Positions 10,044-18,044 of a stretch of DNA of 22,175 nucleotides are shown piece after piece. This DNA is from a virus. Under the pieces are notes generated by a model. The model did no database searches. It saw only the letters and a program-made list of their open reading frames with translations, and had not been told where the DNA came from. The position numbers and the translations under genes were made by a program. The stretch covers positions 1 to 22,175 of the IMG/VR virus record IMGVR_UViG_3300042882_001342, one strand, 5' to 3'. Position 1 is the first letter of the stretch, and every line of letters starts with the position of its first letter.

Positions 10044-13000
10044 CTAAGTCATCGATATTTCGGTGTTTTCACTTGTACCTAAGTTAAAAATACTAAAACA
10101 ACTTAGGAATGAAGACGCGATCGCATCCTTTTTGTTTACTGGTAAGTAAGAAATAGCCTTGGTGAATAGGTGGGAACCATAGGATTGGATAAATACCCCT
10201 ATCGAATTAGCTATCTCAGCATCAATATCGCTTTGAGGGGCATCGGACTTCGCAACCGAGTCTAGGTAAGGGATAGCGGTGTTCTGAATCTCGTAGAGTT
10301 GAGCCATTTCGGAATCTGTTAATCCATCATATTTTATTACCGACTCTTCTTTATATACTAGAGAAAGTAATAACTGCTTAAAGACCTCGAAACCCTTACC
10401 CTGTATATCTTTCGCGTTTTCAGTAACGTAGGCATTGATCCATTTTGATACAGCCCCTTGGGTTACTCCTAAAGCTTGCACAAAATCTTTCACACCCCCT
10501 TTGTCTAAGGCTTCCTTGCCTCTTTTGGCTAACCCTAGTCCGATCTGAAATACTTTGGCTTTGACCTGCTCGGACTTAGAACACAGATCGACGTTAATAT
10601 CTTTGCATTCGACTTGCTCAAATCGATAGCCTAGCAACTCTAGCCATGAGAGATCTCCGTCTCCACAAATCCAGTAATGCAACTGCTCATCCCCCCGTCT
10701 GTTAGCCCGTAGCCGCCCAATCTCTTGAATTACCTCCGTTCTTACCAAGTGTTTGTAGTAGTCGGTAAATGCGCGGTTAAAATGCCCTTTGGAGTATTTA
10801 AAATTACGATCGCCCGTCATGGTGATGTAATTTGAAACCGCCGATCCAATATGGGGGAAAGGAATACCGTAAGAAACGACTGATTTTTTTTTCTGAAATA
10901 AATTAGAGCCGCGCCCGTCAGCAAAGTGGGTTAGATTTTCCCCATCGGCAAAAGCCTTGTAGTCAATTTCGCCTAAGCAATCTTGCGTAATCCCATCGGT
11001 AGAGAGAATATATTCTCGCATGATTGTCTTTTTCTTCTCACTCGCTTCTTTGTCCCGTTGCTTATTGAAAACGCCAAAGCCGTTAGTAACTTGAGTGATC
11101 AATAAATTTTCAGGGGTTTCCGAGTATTTAGCAAATACCATCAATTGATTTTTTTCAATACCTAACTGCAAACATAACCAGTCAGGGTTTACCGTTGCTG
11201 ATTGCATGATGCTGGTTGCGGTATTTTTGATACCGTCGATCATTCGCTGATTCTTAAATTGGATAGCGATTTTGTTGTCACTGAATCTTAAGGATCCGTT
11301 TTCGCGTCCACTCCAGATACCCGCGATCCGTCCGATCCCTAGTGCATTGATTAATTCCGTCCGCTTTTTCTTGACTAAATCTCCCAGATCGGGACGGGAC
11401 AAAACTTCTATCCTTTCAATTCGCTTCAATAAATCATCAACATTATCGGGAACATCCCCCAACCCTGAGCAAACATCTTTCAACCCAAAAAGAATATCAT
11501 GATTTTCTAGTCCGTAAATCGGTAATTTTTTGCATCCTAGAACATTTTCGACTCCTTTAAAAAAGCTATCAAAATCGGCTCTTAGGGTAGGGTCGTGCTG
11601 ATTTGATGCGTTTAAGAAAGCGATATAGTCGTTACTCCCAAAATGAATCGTCTTTGCAAATTCGTAGTTTCCCGAATCAATTTCATCAAATACTCCTATC
11701 GTTTTCTTCGTGAATAAATTCTTAGAGATTAATTGGGGTGAGGTACTGGCATATTGCCAACTCATCGCCTCATGATATTGATTCAAGAATCCGTATCCAT
11801 CCCCCGATTCTGTTTTACATTTTTTAAAGTGAGGACACACTTTGCAGACTTTCTCAGGATCGCGACCACTGGCATAAATTTGATTTAGTTGAGCAGTCCA
11901 ATGGCAGTTAGATTGGGTTCTGAGTTCTGGGATTGTCTCATCGGTAGCCCGTACTCGAAACGGATTCCCTAAAGCGGTTTTCTTATCATAATCCAATTCA
12001 TAGCCATCGTGACGGGCTGGTAGGTCAGGAAAATTTTCTTCGATACCCTTGACCGTTGGGTTACGATGCCCAGGCATTGATAGTATTATCTTGTGAAATT
12101 CTGACTTAATTTCTTCCCCTTCCATTGGTTCAGGAATTTTAAAGCAATTGTTAATCTGAAGCTGTCCAGCAACATGAGATTTTCCCGATCCCGTACTCGA
12201 AACGTCTAGGGCATACTGCCATTCAGGATCGCGGCATACTCGCTCGTAAAATTCTTGATAAAGTTCATTCGATACAATCACTCTGCGACCCGCTAATTGT
12301 TCTTTGGTTGGGAGATCGCCGCCAGTGTAGTAATAGTTAATTGGCTTATTGAAAACAAAATCAGCATCTTGCATCATTTTGTTACTTTCTTCCATAATTG
12401 CCTTAGCGAATCCCGTTAGGAAGGTCATTAAGGATTTATTCTCTACGCATTCCTTGGCGACTTCTTTGATTTTGGGCATCGTGCCTTTAACGTACTGAGT
12501 TACTTTTTGTTGCCAAGATGGTTTATTAATTTTCGGGAACTTAAAACCGTACTCTTTCCCGTAATAAAAAACCGTCCCGATATTACAGGTTGATCGGGCT
12601 TTATCGTTGCTATTTGCAATTTTGTCGATGTACCAACCTATCTTGGGATTTGTGGGACTCCATCGTTCTAGCATGGCGATCGCAATATTTCTTGGGATAC
12701 CGCTATTCAGTACCCCAAATGCAACCCGAATCTGGAAATGGTATTGGTTAGCCCCTTTCATCGTCCGAGGTGGGATACGGTCTAAACAGCCTTGGATTAA
12801 GGTGATTTTTTGATCCTCATCTTGCTCAAAGTTTAAAAAGCTTGGTAGTTGAGCAAGCATCCTTCTCGCTTCTGCTTTTTCTTTTTCTTCTGCTTTCTTA
12901 ATTTCTAGCGACGCGATCGCATCATCTACATATTTTTGGGGTAAAGGAACTGCATTCTCATTTTTCCATCTCCACGCACTAGGATCATTATTCCCGTAAA

Positions 13001-13523
13001 ATCCACGCCCACCCTCAACCGCCGCAAGGTCTAACCCTGGGTAGTCGTCAACAAACCTAAATTTCATTTCTTCATAAATTTCTAGGGAGACGGGATTCTC
13101 GAAAACAATGATCGCCCGAAAACGAGGCCAGTCTGGTTTTGAACTACAGGTTTCACAGACATAGGCGGTATATTGTTGATGCAATGGAGAATTTAAGATA
13201 CTCCACTGGGTATTTTCAATTTTTTTTATCTTTTGATCTTCCTTTTTCCCTTTTTCGTTGACAACCTGAATAGTTTCGGTATTGTCAAAATCTAACGCGA
13301 CTCCATATATAAGGTCAATATTTTCCTTATTCCTTCTTCCATCCCCTTTATAGGTAGCCATAGAGTACGAGAAGCCCATAGACTCTGCTTCTATCAGGTC
13401 ATCTATCGATCCTTGGTACGGCTGAAAACCAGCAGTAAACTTCTCATGCTGAGTCGTTTTATTGATAACTAGCGAGTTTACCGAAAATTTAAACGATTCT
13501 AGGGATTGAGTAACTTCAATCAT
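10044..13523 (-). CDS. large primase-helicase replication protein (1159 aa)
   Basis: The N-terminal third looks like an archaeo-eukaryotic primase/replicase module: D78-F-D80 after a beta strand, then W-P-R-F-R-A-I-I-V-F (132-141) and D165 to G174. A PriCT-like helical segment follows (about 245-330). A helicase comes next: Walker A S-T-G-S-G-K-S (443-449), Walker B V-F-D-E-I-D (611-616), a G-R-G-S-N segment (869-873) and motif VI Q-E-I-G-R-L-R-A-N-R-R (932-942). Four cysteines (540, 560, 563, 569) between Walker A and B recall the iron-sulphur site of XPD/DinG helicases. A helix-turn-helix (about 1012-1029, L-G-V-T-Q-G-A-V-S-K-W) may bind the origin. Overall design recalls large cyanobacterial plasmid replicases (CyRepA-type). 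The ATG has AGGAG at 13534-13538. Confidence 0.75.
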   Translation of the reverse strand: MIEVTQSLESFKFSVNSLVINKTTQHEKFTAGFQPYQGSIDDLIEAESMGFSYSMATYKGDGRRNKENIDLIYGVALDFDNTETIQVVNEKGKKEDQKIKKIENTQWSILNSPLHQQYTAYVCETCSSKPDWPRFRAIIVFENPVSLEIYEEMKFRFVDDYPGLDLAAVEGGRGFYGNNDPSAWRWKNENAVPLPQKYVDDAIASLEIKKAEEKEKAEARRMLAQLPSFLNFEQDEDQKITLIQGCLDRIPPRTMKGANQYHFQIRVAFGVLNSGIPRNIAIAMLERWSPTNPKIGWYIDKIANSNDKARSTCNIGTVFYYGKEYGFKFPKINKPSWQQKVTQYVKGTMPKIKEVAKECVENKSLMTFLTGFAKAIMEESNKMMQDADFVFNKPINYYYTGGDLPTKEQLAGRRVIVSNELYQEFYERVCRDPEWQYALDVSSTGSGKSHVAGQLQINNCFKIPEPMEGEEIKSEFHKIILSMPGHRNPTVKGIEENFPDLPARHDGYELDYDKKTALGNPFRVRATDETIPELRTQSNCHWTAQLNQIYASGRDPEKVCKVCPHFKKCKTESGDGYGFLNQYHEAMSWQYASTSPQLISKNLFTKKTIGVFDEIDSGNYEFAKTIHFGSNDYIAFLNASNQHDPTLRADFDSFFKGVENVLGCKKLPIYGLENHDILFGLKDVCSGLGDVPDNVDDLLKRIERIEVLSRPDLGDLVKKKRTELINALGIGRIAGIWSGRENGSLRFSDNKIAIQFKNQRMIDGIKNTATSIMQSATVNPDWLCLQLGIEKNQLMVFAKYSETPENLLITQVTNGFGVFNKQRDKEASEKKKTIMREYILSTDGITQDCLGEIDYKAFADGENLTHFADGRGSNLFQKKKSVVSYGIPFPHIGSAVSNYITMTGDRNFKYSKGHFNRAFTDYYKHLVRTEVIQEIGRLRANRRGDEQLHYWICGDGDLSWLELLGYRFEQVECKDINVDLCSKSEQVKAKVFQIGLGLAKRGKEALDKGGVKDFVQALGVTQGAVSKWINAYVTENAKDIQGKGFEVFKQLLLSLVYKEESVIKYDGLTDSEMAQLYEIQNTAIPYLDSVAKSDAPQSDIDAEIANSIGVFIQSYGSHLFTKAISYLPVNKKDAIASSFLSCFSIFNLGTSENTEISMT

Positions 13524-13529
13524 ATATCT

Positions 13530-13787
13530 TACGCTCCTAAATACATTTTAACGATAAACACAACAAAACCCTCGCACCGTGTAGAGCAGGTGAAGAGCTG
13601 AAAGCTTTGATGGCCAAGACTTGCGGGTATTTGCATGATGTATTTAAGTATAGGTAAGTGATCAAATAATAACACACGTCTTATAAATGATCCAACAAAA
13701 AAAATCTCCCATTACAGGAGACTCATGAAACTTACTTATACCAAACCATCACGGACTTAAATAGAATTTATCATAAAAAGGAGCGTA
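13530..13787 (-). promoter_or_regulatory. SD region of the replication gene with upstream complementary copy
   Basis: The ribosome-binding region of the replication gene reads AGGAGCGTA on the minus strand (13538-13530). The plus strand carries AGGAGCGTA at 13779-13787, so minus-strand RNA made from there contains UACGCUCCU, a perfect 9-nt complement. A transcript covering 13779-13787 could therefore mask the ribosome binding site, in cis or in trans. Confidence 0.45.
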
Positions 13788-13839
13788 TAAGGCTTTGACG
13801 GGGTTCTATCATTGTGTGAGCAATTAAAGCATCAAAGCC
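13604..13839. repeat. competing inverted repeats in the replication-gene leader
   Basis: CATCAAAGCC at 13830-13839 can pair with GGCTTTGA at 13791-13798 (8 bp) or with GCTTTGATG at 13604-13612 (9 bp). The two pairings use the same bases and exclude each other. The first would be made within the RNA upstream of the terminator, the second only in RNA that reads through it. Confidence 0.5.
13697..13721 (-). terminator. intrinsic terminator in the leader of the replication gene
   Basis: Read on the minus strand: TCTCC (13721-13717), 7-nt loop, GGAGA (13709-13705), then eight T (13704-13697). The stem is short but the U-run is long. It lies about 175 bp upstream of the replication gene start, so it could act as an attenuator or end a small RNA. 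Confidence 0.65.
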
Positions 13840-13842
13840 ATA
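13697..13842 (-). ncRNA. candidate small RNA / attenuated leader RNA
   Basis: A minus-strand promoter-like sequence (13848-13877) and an intrinsic terminator (13697-13721) bound about 145 bp that contain no convincing ORF. The RNA would form a GGCUUUGA/UCAAAGCC stem (13839-13832 with 13798-13791) followed directly by UACGCUCCU, complementary to the ribosome binding site of the replication gene. It could be a trans-acting repressor of replication or the attenuated 5' end of the replication mRNA. The start near 13842 is an estimate. Confidence 0.4.
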
Positions 13843-13847
13843 TTGCC

Positions 13848-13877
13848 AAGATAACATATAAAACAAAAATATGTCAA
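13848..13877 (-). promoter_or_regulatory. sigma-70-like promoter toward the replication gene
   Basis: On the minus strand: perfect -35 TTGACA (13877-13872), then TTATCT after 17 bp (13854-13849) or TATCTT after 18 bp (13853-13848). The -10 box is only fair. It fires toward the terminator at 13697 and the replication gene. Confidence 0.5.
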
Positions 13878-13899
13878 GAAAAATGTTTTAATAATTTTA

Positions 13900-13928
13900 T
13901 TGACTTTTTAAAATAGATCATTTATGAT
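13900..13928 (+). promoter_or_regulatory. sigma-70-like promoter of the 13965-16990 gene cluster
   Basis: TTGACT (13900-13905), 17-bp spacer, TATGAT (13923-13928). It is divergent from the minus-strand promoter with 22 bp between the two -35 boxes, so both could be controlled by one protein. The -10 overlaps one arm of the 10-bp inverted repeat. Confidence 0.7.
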
Positions 13929-15483: not shown

Positions 15484-16362
15484 ATGCTATTTTTAATCAT
15501 GCCCACGAACCCAAAAAGTAAAGTCGATCAAAAGATTCTAATGGATCGGTTTTTAACTCTACGTTTACTAATGGAAGAGTCGGGCATGATTAAATTCAAT
15601 AATGGTGTAGAAATAAAGCCTTTTTTCTGTATGGCTAAAACAGATGTAATTAGCCAACTCGAAATTCTTTACCCTGACAAAAAAAGGTTAATTTACTTAG
15701 GGGAAAAAGCTAAGGATGAATTAGTAATGTCATTAAAAGGGATGGTAATAAAAAAAGCCGATTTTTACCACACAAAGGCAAACGCAACCAAAGATAAGTT
15801 AGAAGATTTTATTCAGGACGGGTGGAATGGAGCTTGCTACGCACTCTATAAATTTGATTCAAGTGAAGGCACTAAGTTTTCATCTTATGCAGACTTTTGG
15901 ATTAATGCCAGAATACTTCGAGGCTCTTATCAGGATTACCTAATTAAAGCCAATCTACAATATGAAGCATTAAAGCTAACTATCCCCCGTAGTTTCAGGC
16001 TTTTTGACCTACTCGCAATACCTACCGATCTGTTATGGATTTATCTTTCTAGAAAGACCGTTTATCCTAGTTACCCTTTTAGATTTCACTCCCAAGTTAA
16101 AAACATGGATGGGGATTTAGTTGATATTTTTGACACCGTTGAAACGGATGACAAAAAAACATTAGCCGATAAGGTTCTTGATATTTTATCCCCTAAAGAA
16201 ATTGAAGTATTAACTTCCGACGATCAATCAACAAAGAAAACACGAAAGAAACAACAATCAATAGGTATTCTAGAGTTGGCATTAATGCAAGGAATACCGT
16301 TAGATAGTTTTTACGACAAAAAACAACAAATCATCAACAAAGTAATGGAGCGTATTGAATAA
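15484..16362 (+). CDS. divergent sigma-70-like factor (292 aa)
   Basis: Residues 106-147 read as sigma-70 region 2: L-E-D-F-I-Q-D-G-W-N-G (compare D-L-I-Q-E-G-x-x-G), Y-K-F-D-S-S-E-G-T-K-F-S-S-Y-A (compare K-F-D-x-x-x-G-x-K-F-S-T-Y-A) and W-I-N-A-R-I in place of W-W-I-R-x-A-I. L-T-I-P-R-S (166-170) resembles region 3.0, and D-I-F-D-T-V-E-T-D-D (214-223) resembles the 3.2 linker. The C-terminus (about 228-292, L-D-I-L-S-P-K-E-I-E-V-L) fits region 4. It would direct RNA polymerase to phage promoters. An in-frame ATG at 15499 is an alternative start; neither has a clear ribosome binding site. The next gene follows by two bases. Confidence 0.7.
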   Translation: MLFLIMPTNPKSKVDQKILMDRFLTLRLLMEESGMIKFNNGVEIKPFFCMAKTDVISQLEILYPDKKRLIYLGEKAKDELVMSLKGMVIKKADFYHTKANATKDKLEDFIQDGWNGACYALYKFDSSEGTKFSSYADFWINARILRGSYQDYLIKANLQYEALKLTIPRSFRLFDLLAIPTDLLWIYLSRKTVYPSYPFRFHSQVKNMDGDLVDIFDTVETDDKKTLADKVLDILSPKEIEVLTSDDQSTKKTRKKQQSIGILELALMQGIPLDSFYDKKQQIINKVMERIE

Positions 16363-16582: not shown

Positions 16583-16990
16583 ATGCAGGAAAACAAAGTG
16601 GGACTTACTCATCCCGATACTTTTAAAACATTATTTAAAATTGCTCAATTATTTTTCCGTCTTGTAGGTCGAGGAGTTGTATTTTTATCTCTAGACAATC
16701 TCACTGATAAGGATGGATATTCGATGAAAACCTTTATATCTTTTTTAAAGAGAGAAGTAAGATATCTCCCAATTGATTTAGAGAAATTGGATCATTTAAG
16801 TCAAGATGCTAAGGATTGTTTGAGCGATATTGATATTGTCAGTCTCTACAAAAAAGAAGCCGAGTCGTACAATCCTCGCACTGAATTTATTTTGATGTTG
16901 GGATGTCCTAATCTTTCAGAATTAAAGCGTGAAGAGTCGATTTCTTTATTTATTTGCAATCGGTTTGGTATTATCAAAAATCAGGCTTAA
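16583..16990 (+). CDS. hypothetical protein (135 aa)
   Basis: A 135-aa, helical protein with no recognised family. The ATG at 16583 has GAGG seven to ten bases upstream. It ends the plus-strand cluster and overlaps the 3' end of the integrase gene by 17 bp in the convergent direction. No terminator is visible at the convergence, so antisense transcription into the integrase gene is possible, and could lower integrase expression when the cluster is active. Confidence 0.55.
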   Translation: MQENKVGLTHPDTFKTLFKIAQLFFRLVGRGVVFLSLDNLTDKDGYSMKTFISFLKREVRYLPIDLEKLDHLSQDAKDCLSDIDIVSLYKKEAESYNPRTEFILMLGCPNLSELKREESISLFICNRFGIIKNQA

Positions 16991-18044
16991 CCCTATCAGG
17001 ATTATTCATAATCCGATCAAAAGCCCGTTGATGAACAGAATCATCTAACCACGCTGAATAAATAGTCACATGAACACTGTGGGAATGCCTCATCTGTTTA
17101 GCGGCTAACTGTGAATCCAAACCCAGTTCAATCGCCCGTCTAGCCCAACAATGACGCAGGGCATAGGGAGTAAAGGGAATTTTAGAACGGGAAAAAGCCT
17201 TTCCTATTCTCGATCCTTGCTCCCTATTGTTTTTTCCGTTGACGTTGGGAACCCTAATATTTTTTAAATCAAAATAATCTACCCACTCAGGATAAAGGGG
17301 CCAGACCTTTCCTTCTCCCGTCTTACCATCTAAAACGTGGCAGATACCACTACTGATTAATAATTCATGGTCAATCAAAAATACTTCGTGAGGTCTCAGC
17401 CCGAAAGTCGCCATGATCCCGTATGCCCACCGCCACGAATCATTCTTAAGTAAGTTTACGGATTCTTGAATCTCTCTATCCGTTGGGAGATTTCTTGGGT
17501 TAACCCGTTTCAATCCGTAATCCCCTTGTAATTTAGCGGTATCGATTTCTATCTCAAAAAACTTACCAAATGCCTTAAATGCCCTACAAATCAATTGCCT
17601 AGTGCGAGTATTCGGATCCGTAGCTTTGATGGTGGCAATCAGTAGCTCACTGGTTAAGCGTTCATCCCTGGGTAATTTTTTAAACAACTGAGCATAATTA
17701 CTGGAAAAAGTCGTTTCGGTTTTGGCTGACCGACCGCGCTCAGAAAAATAATCTTTCTCAAAAGCCGCGATCGCATCCCCCGCCGTCAACTGCTCAACGG
17801 GTTTTGCCCATGTAAAGCTTCCCTCAGACAATTGGACTCCCAACTTCCGAGCTTCCAACTCAGCCGCTTTAAATCCTGCGGGGTTGGCCCGAAAACCTAA
17901 ACTAATCCGTTGCTGGTAAGCCCGTTGTTTCCCACTACTTGGTTTTGGCGGTAACGTGGCAACCAGATAAAGGCGATCGCCCCTTTGTTCTACCGTAACC
18001 CCTATCCTACCGACTCTTAATCGATTATTGATTGCGTCTAACAC
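16974..18044 (-). CDS. int: tyrosine-family site-specific integrase (356 aa)
   Basis: The catalytic residues of tyrosine recombinases are all visible: R217 (in G-L-R-P-H-E), K241 (G-K-T-G-E-G-K), R297 (Y-A-L-R-H), H320 (M-R-H-S-H) and Y329 (V-T-I-Y-S-A-W). The histidine of the HxxR box is replaced by Tyr (Y294), which is frequent among integrases. Residues 11-80 resemble an arm-binding N-terminal domain and about 85-180 a core-binding domain. The only start is GTG at 18044, without a ribosome binding site. Arm site 1 of attP overlaps this start codon, so integrase binding could repress its own gene. It should insert the element into a tRNA-Arg(UCU) gene. Confidence 0.9.
   Translation of the reverse strand: MLDAINNRLRVGRIGVTVEQRGDRLYLVATLPPKPSSGKQRAYQQRISLGFRANPAGFKAAELEARKLGVQLSEGSFTWAKPVEQLTAGDAIAAFEKDYFSERGRSAKTETTFSSNYAQLFKKLPRDERLTSELLIATIKATDPNTRTRQLICRAFKAFGKFFEIEIDTAKLQGDYGLKRVNPRNLPTDREIQESVNLLKNDSWRWAYGIMATFGLRPHEVFLIDHELLISSGICHVLDGKTGEGKVWPLYPEWVDYFDLKNIRVPNVNGKNNREQGSRIGKAFSRSKIPFTPYALRHCWARRAIELGLDSQLAAKQMRHSHSVHVTIYSAWLDDSVHQRAFDRIMNNPDRVKPDF

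Follow-up and report, generated by a model that had tools for sequence, protein, structure and literature searches.

A predicted same-strand RNA may control a plasmid-type replication gene in a phage through two pairing sites

Different sequences in two phages have rebuilt one RNA pairing at one place, upstream of a replication gene (rep). The pairing joins two hypervariable segments of the same strand, which we call M5 and M3. M5 lies near the end of a predicted short RNA and M3 forms the start of the predicted rep mRNA. The short RNA also contains a 9-nt complement of the rep ribosome-binding site (SD), and this complement was the basis of the original prediction, in which a same-strand RNA controls replication either by attenuation or as a trans-acting repressor. 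Judged from sequence, M5:M3, not the 9-nt element, is the strongest evidence for such control. The M5:M3 pairing, a promoter-like block after the terminator (P2) and a leader ORF were not part of that prediction. The relevant features of the window, by which we mean the whole stretch of 22,175 nucleotides analysed, are as follows.

13848..13877, minus strand: P1, predicted promoter of the short RNA (TTGACA, 18-nt spacer, TATCTT, with TG before the -10 element), from a consensus scan
13697..13841, minus strand: predicted short RNA of ~145 nt, from P1 to the terminator; its fold comprises H1, anti-SD, M5 and terminator
13791..13839, minus strand: H1 hairpin, from the fold of the short RNA, preceding the anti-SD
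13779..13787, minus strand: anti-SD UACGCUCCU, exact complement of AGGAGCGUA at 13538-13530 and core of a longer complement reaching to about 13760
13725..13754, minus strand: M5, hypervariable partner arm of M3, with 47% identity to the relative, directly before the terminator
13697..13724, minus strand: intrinsic terminator GAGTCTCCTGTAATGGGAGATTTTTTTTG, ending the short RNA
13666..13695, minus strand: P2, promoter-like block preceding the rep mRNA (extended -10 element TGTTATTAT, weak -35 element TTGGAT, 18-nt spacer)
13633..13665, minus strand: M3, hypervariable (31% identity with the relative), forming the start of the predicted rep mRNA and holding the leader-ORF AUG
13529..13636, minus strand: leader ORF of 35 codons, its stop (13531-13529) right after the rep SD
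13569..13597, minus strand: hairpin CUCUUCACC...GGUGCGAGGG in the rep leader, from fold and conservation
13530..13538, minus strand: rep ribosome-binding site AGGAGCGUA, shortly before the ATG and targeted by the anti-SD
10044..13523, minus strand: rep gene (1159 aa, ATG at 13523), relative of cyanobacterial plasmid PriCT-2 / CyRepX Reps

The window (virus record IMGVR_UViG_3300042882_001342, 22 kb) may be a fragment. Its sole relative in the searched collections is a 76.5-kb IMG/VR contig (3300042908_001001, L002) with a Rep protein 96% identical. Note that all comparisons of the leader rest on these two sequences. Scans with the protein, with alignments and with a neighbour gene returned no second relative closer than 30%. 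Among phages, DNA searches gave nothing but short AT-rich matches, and the leader had no match among plasmids. One common 17-18-mer, without the leader, was shared with L005, L007 and 23 genome contigs and judged to be chance; L005 and L007 additionally have no Rep gene. A loose hairpin pattern found 115 stretches and, among those compared, none was related. In the window, GCGATCGC occurs 14 times (0.1 expected), a cyanobacterial signature. A ParA-type gene was found neither in the window record nor in that of the relative. Positions 16974-18044 (minus strand) encode a tyrosine-recombinase-like protein. A 17-kb Microcystis plasmid carries one with 42% identity to it; an integrase family search gave no match in the related phage record.

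In the relative, P1 retains both hexamers, with an altered discriminator and spacer length (17). Identity of 98% resumes at the predicted +1 (13841) and runs through H1 and the anti-SD. Within H1, one loop base is changed and the remainder is identical. Since conservation begins at the predicted start of the RNA, function as an RNA is indicated. At the other end, the terminator is 68% identical; its stem is preserved by paired changes (T-A to C-G) and its T-run is retained. Both P1 and the terminator, as originally predicted, are present, and the stem said to precede the SD complement corresponds to H1, which in the fold (13839-13791) does so. The short RNA also contains a 13-codon ORF (about 13812-13770, minus strand; MIEPRQSLIRSFL, and MIDPRQSLIRSLL in the relative). 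This overlaps H1 and the anti-SD, and its translation would compete with pairing. Part of the conserved 5' block could, alternatively, encode a short peptide. Upstream of P1 lies an AT-rich divergent-promoter region (13879-13913), of which the relative has 88% identical copies in two other intergenic regions (L032 1501-1535 and L033 1501-1532). This is possibly a family of phage promoters or operators.

The 9-nt complement named in the original prediction is exact (13787-13779 with 13538-13530). Nine bases alone are weak evidence, because 3-4% of short-RNA sequences shuffled by dinucleotide have a Watson-Crick run of at least 9 nt to the SD region; the caution first attached to them, that chance was not excluded, was well placed. 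Imperfect pairing extends further, between 13790-13759 and the 13562-13530 region. Among about 14,525 windows from both strands, this longer element comes 5th (top 0.03%), and in the relative it comes first of 8,722 windows; such ranks are somewhat optimistic since the segment was picked after the pairing was seen. The original prediction had named covariation in related phages as a check, and unconserved complementarity in homologous leaders as grounds for doubt. In the sole relative, the anti-SD:SD complementarity is fully conserved; between the two sequences, this pairing shows no covariation. Note that, in the fold of the predicted P2 mRNA, the SD is largely paired even without the short RNA. 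Two other pairings were set aside. A 9-nt match between the H1 arm GCUUUGAUG and CAUCAAAGC in the rep leader was not relied on, being invariant and crossing the anti-SD pairing. The other, between M3 and the SD within the P2 mRNA, is specific to the window and not retained in the relative.

The bounds of M5 and M3 are the conservation boundaries between the two phages. Pairing of the window's own M5 and M3 yields -22.5 kcal/mol (p 0.004-0.009 against shuffles). The equivalent value for the relative is -24.2 kcal/mol (p 0-0.003). Conversely, cross-phage combinations yield -14.5 and -11.1 kcal/mol, about background (the shuffle mean is about -13.6). Compared with genome windows, 17 of 14,530 are as good in the window, and the relative's pairing ranks 11 of 8,726. 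The pairing in the window was first spotted in a fold, and the relative is the cleaner test. Binding energies for the whole RNAs follow the same pattern, with own values of -18.5 and -18.9 kcal/mol and cross values of -13.0 and -7.1 kcal/mol. Might these be chance complementarities, in a mosaic intergenic region swapped by recombination? There are two sequences only, the nine bases alone turn up by chance at the rate given above, and the middle segment could have been exchanged. However, each phage has the pairing independently, the terminator has paired changes and the boundaries are sharp. We consider such an origin most improbable.

P2 lies just behind the terminator and between the two diverged arms, and is 84% identical in the relative. 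We assigned it by our own reading; its score in the promoter scan fell short of the threshold. A phage protein encoded at 15484-16362 (plus strand) has similarity to sigma-70 region 2 (Pfam E 3e-6; PHROG sigma factor E 1e-11). Hence, phage promoters may differ from the consensus. In both phages, M3 begins at the predicted +1 of P2. From the end of M3 to the start of rep, the leader is 96% identical. The leader ORF is open in both phages (35 codons in the window, 38 in the relative) and is predicted to be coding; its frame is preserved despite a 9-nt length difference before the block common to both. Read in order, the mosaic (98%, M5 at 47%, terminator, P2 at 84%, M3 at 31%, then 96%) fits two transcripts.

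The sequence itself shows the two pairings, one conserved and one co-diverged, together with the terminator and an open leader ORF. From these we infer that replication is controlled by two RNAs of the same strand: the short P1 RNA would act in trans on the rep mRNA made from P2. We give this model about an even chance of being correct. Transcription from P1 would produce the ~145-nt RNA, ending at the terminator. P2, directly behind, would produce the rep mRNA, with M3 at its start and then the leader ORF and the rep SD. M5 of the short RNA, acting in trans, would pair with M3, covering the 5' end of the mRNA and the start codon of the leader ORF, and the anti-SD would pair with the rep SD. 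Both pairings would block Rep synthesis, and translation of the leader ORF is presumably coupled to that of rep. As phage copies increase so would the inhibitor, limiting replication, and an incoming phage whose pairing type matches would be shut off. By diverging together, M5 and M3 would set the specificity type, for either immunity or incompatibility.

Searches by tblastn with Rep matched 94 plasmids, 22 of them over at least 80% of the length, with identity of 24-27% at best. The match to a pSYSX protein spans residues 436-1027. We take this protein to be CyRepX1 or CyRepX2, equating it with the genes of the published pSYSX work cited below. Rep had no match in 50,697 phage records. By similarity, Rep is distantly related to Reps of cyanobacterial plasmids, including one on pSYSX, and its replication activity is predicted; the original label of replication gene was correct in kind. 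We examined the last 60 bases before the start codon in 18 cyanobacterial plasmid relatives, and in most a local hairpin pairs the SD with an anti-SD stretch. Hence, predicted masking of the Rep SD recurs across the rep family. Stem sequences of these hairpins differ between lineages (for example, UUCCUCC...GGAGGAA; L034-L037, L168-L181). A leader ORF ending at the SD is found in one of the 18, pSYSX.

Compared with shuffles, both full leaders fold much more strongly (z -3.4 for the window and -4.7 for the relative), and the minimum-energy structure of each contains both the anti-SD:SD and M5:M3 stems. Thus, identical pairings can form inside one read-through RNA, and the leader might work in cis only. 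P1 would then be the rep promoter. In the read-through RNA, the anti-SD would mask the SD, with M5:M3 as an inner stem, and the terminator and fold would be either a switch or constant dampers. SD masking in cis is, as noted, common among the plasmid relatives. However, three things are left unexplained: a 37-bp promoter-like block is conserved within the fold, between diverged segments; the M3 arm starts at the predicted start of P2; and the stem is the fastest-changing part of a leader otherwise 96-98% identical. Furthermore, the predicted folds showed no antiterminator, nor any other pairing that competes for the 5' arm of the terminator. On this basis classical attenuation, the other option of the original prediction, is not favoured either. 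We regard control in cis alone as the main rival, though rather unlikely. The two-RNA model is favoured because it accounts for conservation of the P2 block, for where M3 begins and for the rapid, matched divergence of the arms. The proposal of same-strand control is thus supported, by conserved complementarity and by M5:M3, with the trans repressor the favoured mechanism of the two first offered. The cis fold could operate alongside, keeping read-through from P1 silent.

Most of what is known of control by RNA, both of phage immunity and of plasmid copy number, comes from enterobacteria, and the RNAs concerned are mostly opposite-strand. C4 RNA is made from the strand of its target, upstream of that target. 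In phages P1 and P7, C4 pairs around a ribosome-binding site and blocks translation, and differences in pairing underlie P1/P7 heteroimmunity (PMC12197685). Here too, a phage RNA is complementary to the ribosome-binding site of a downstream gene on the same strand, and repression in trans is predicted. The target differs, being a plasmid-type Rep rather than an antirepressor operon. Furthermore, C4 is a processed 77-nt RNA, whereas the RNA described here is predicted to end at its own terminator and has a second pairing at the leader-ORF start. Rfam searches of the window (gathering score) and leader (E up to 10) gave nothing credible, and the C4 covariance model (RF01695) had no match in the window, the leader or either phage. 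The short RNA is not a member of the C4 family (RF01695).

The CI RNA of satellite phage P4 is derived from a leader, pairs with the same-strand leader and shuts off replication genes (PMC4825925). The predicted RNA shares this origin and type of target. However, CI acts by premature transcription termination, via seqA/seqC, whereas the pairing here covers the leader-ORF start and SD. In Gifsy-1, the terminated short RNA IsrK and a longer same-strand RNA interact in trans (PMC4825925). IsrK is an activator of its target, whereas we predict repression and propose a second promoter. The layout does suggest another scheme. With P1 as the single promoter and minority read-through, the terminated short RNA would act in trans on its own read-through mRNA, as IsrK does, and C4 of P1/P7 is similar in spirit. 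On such an mRNA, the segments present in cis would pair first, and conservation of P2 would be unexplained. We think this scheme improbable.

Leader-peptide coupling is known in plasmid R1 and the I-complex plasmids. One account (PMC10724649) describes how plasmid Inc/Cop RNAs (CopA of R1; RNAI of IncI/IncB/IncK) block rep translation and set incompatibility, how CopA inhibits rep via a leader peptide, and how a few changed bases create new incompatibility groups. Similarly, the leader ORF described here is predicted to be coding and has its stop by the rep ribosome-binding region, and the candidate specificity segments, M5 and M3, co-diverge between the two sequences. Inc/Cop RNAs are opposite-strand and fully complementary, whereas the predicted RNA is same-strand with patchy complementarity. 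Control RNAs also occur beside cyanobacterial Rep genes. These include asRNA1 of pSYSA, which encodes CyRepA1 (PMC9978351), and asRNAs with anti-SD stretches over the CyRepX1/2 starts of pSYSX (PMC10899382). Both differ in being opposite-strand and on plasmids, rather than same-strand and in a phage. A conventional plus-strand antisense RNA, as in pSYSA or as proposed for pSYSX, might therefore control rep, with the same-strand complementarity secondary. We found no plus-strand terminator over the leader or the start of rep, and the co-diverged M5:M3 pairing would be unexplained. Such an RNA seems very unlikely to be the main control.

Slightly short of an even chance, in our judgement, is the broader interpretation that a plasmid-type Rep is under a same-strand RNA acting in trans at two sites, the leader-ORF start and the SD, with fast-evolving matched arms as an immunity or incompatibility code. 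This would be plasmid copy control in C4 geometry. If true, a cyanobacterial phage with a plasmid-type Rep uses a same-strand copy or immunity RNA, and matched M5/M3 arms predict which phages exclude each other.

Within rep, the first codons (13480-13523) are 80% conserved, compared with 96% for the preceding leader. A 56-bp piece of the rep 3' end (10078-10133) recurs, 82% identical, elsewhere in the related phage, where it lies in a separate 138-aa open frame (L004 1552-1607).
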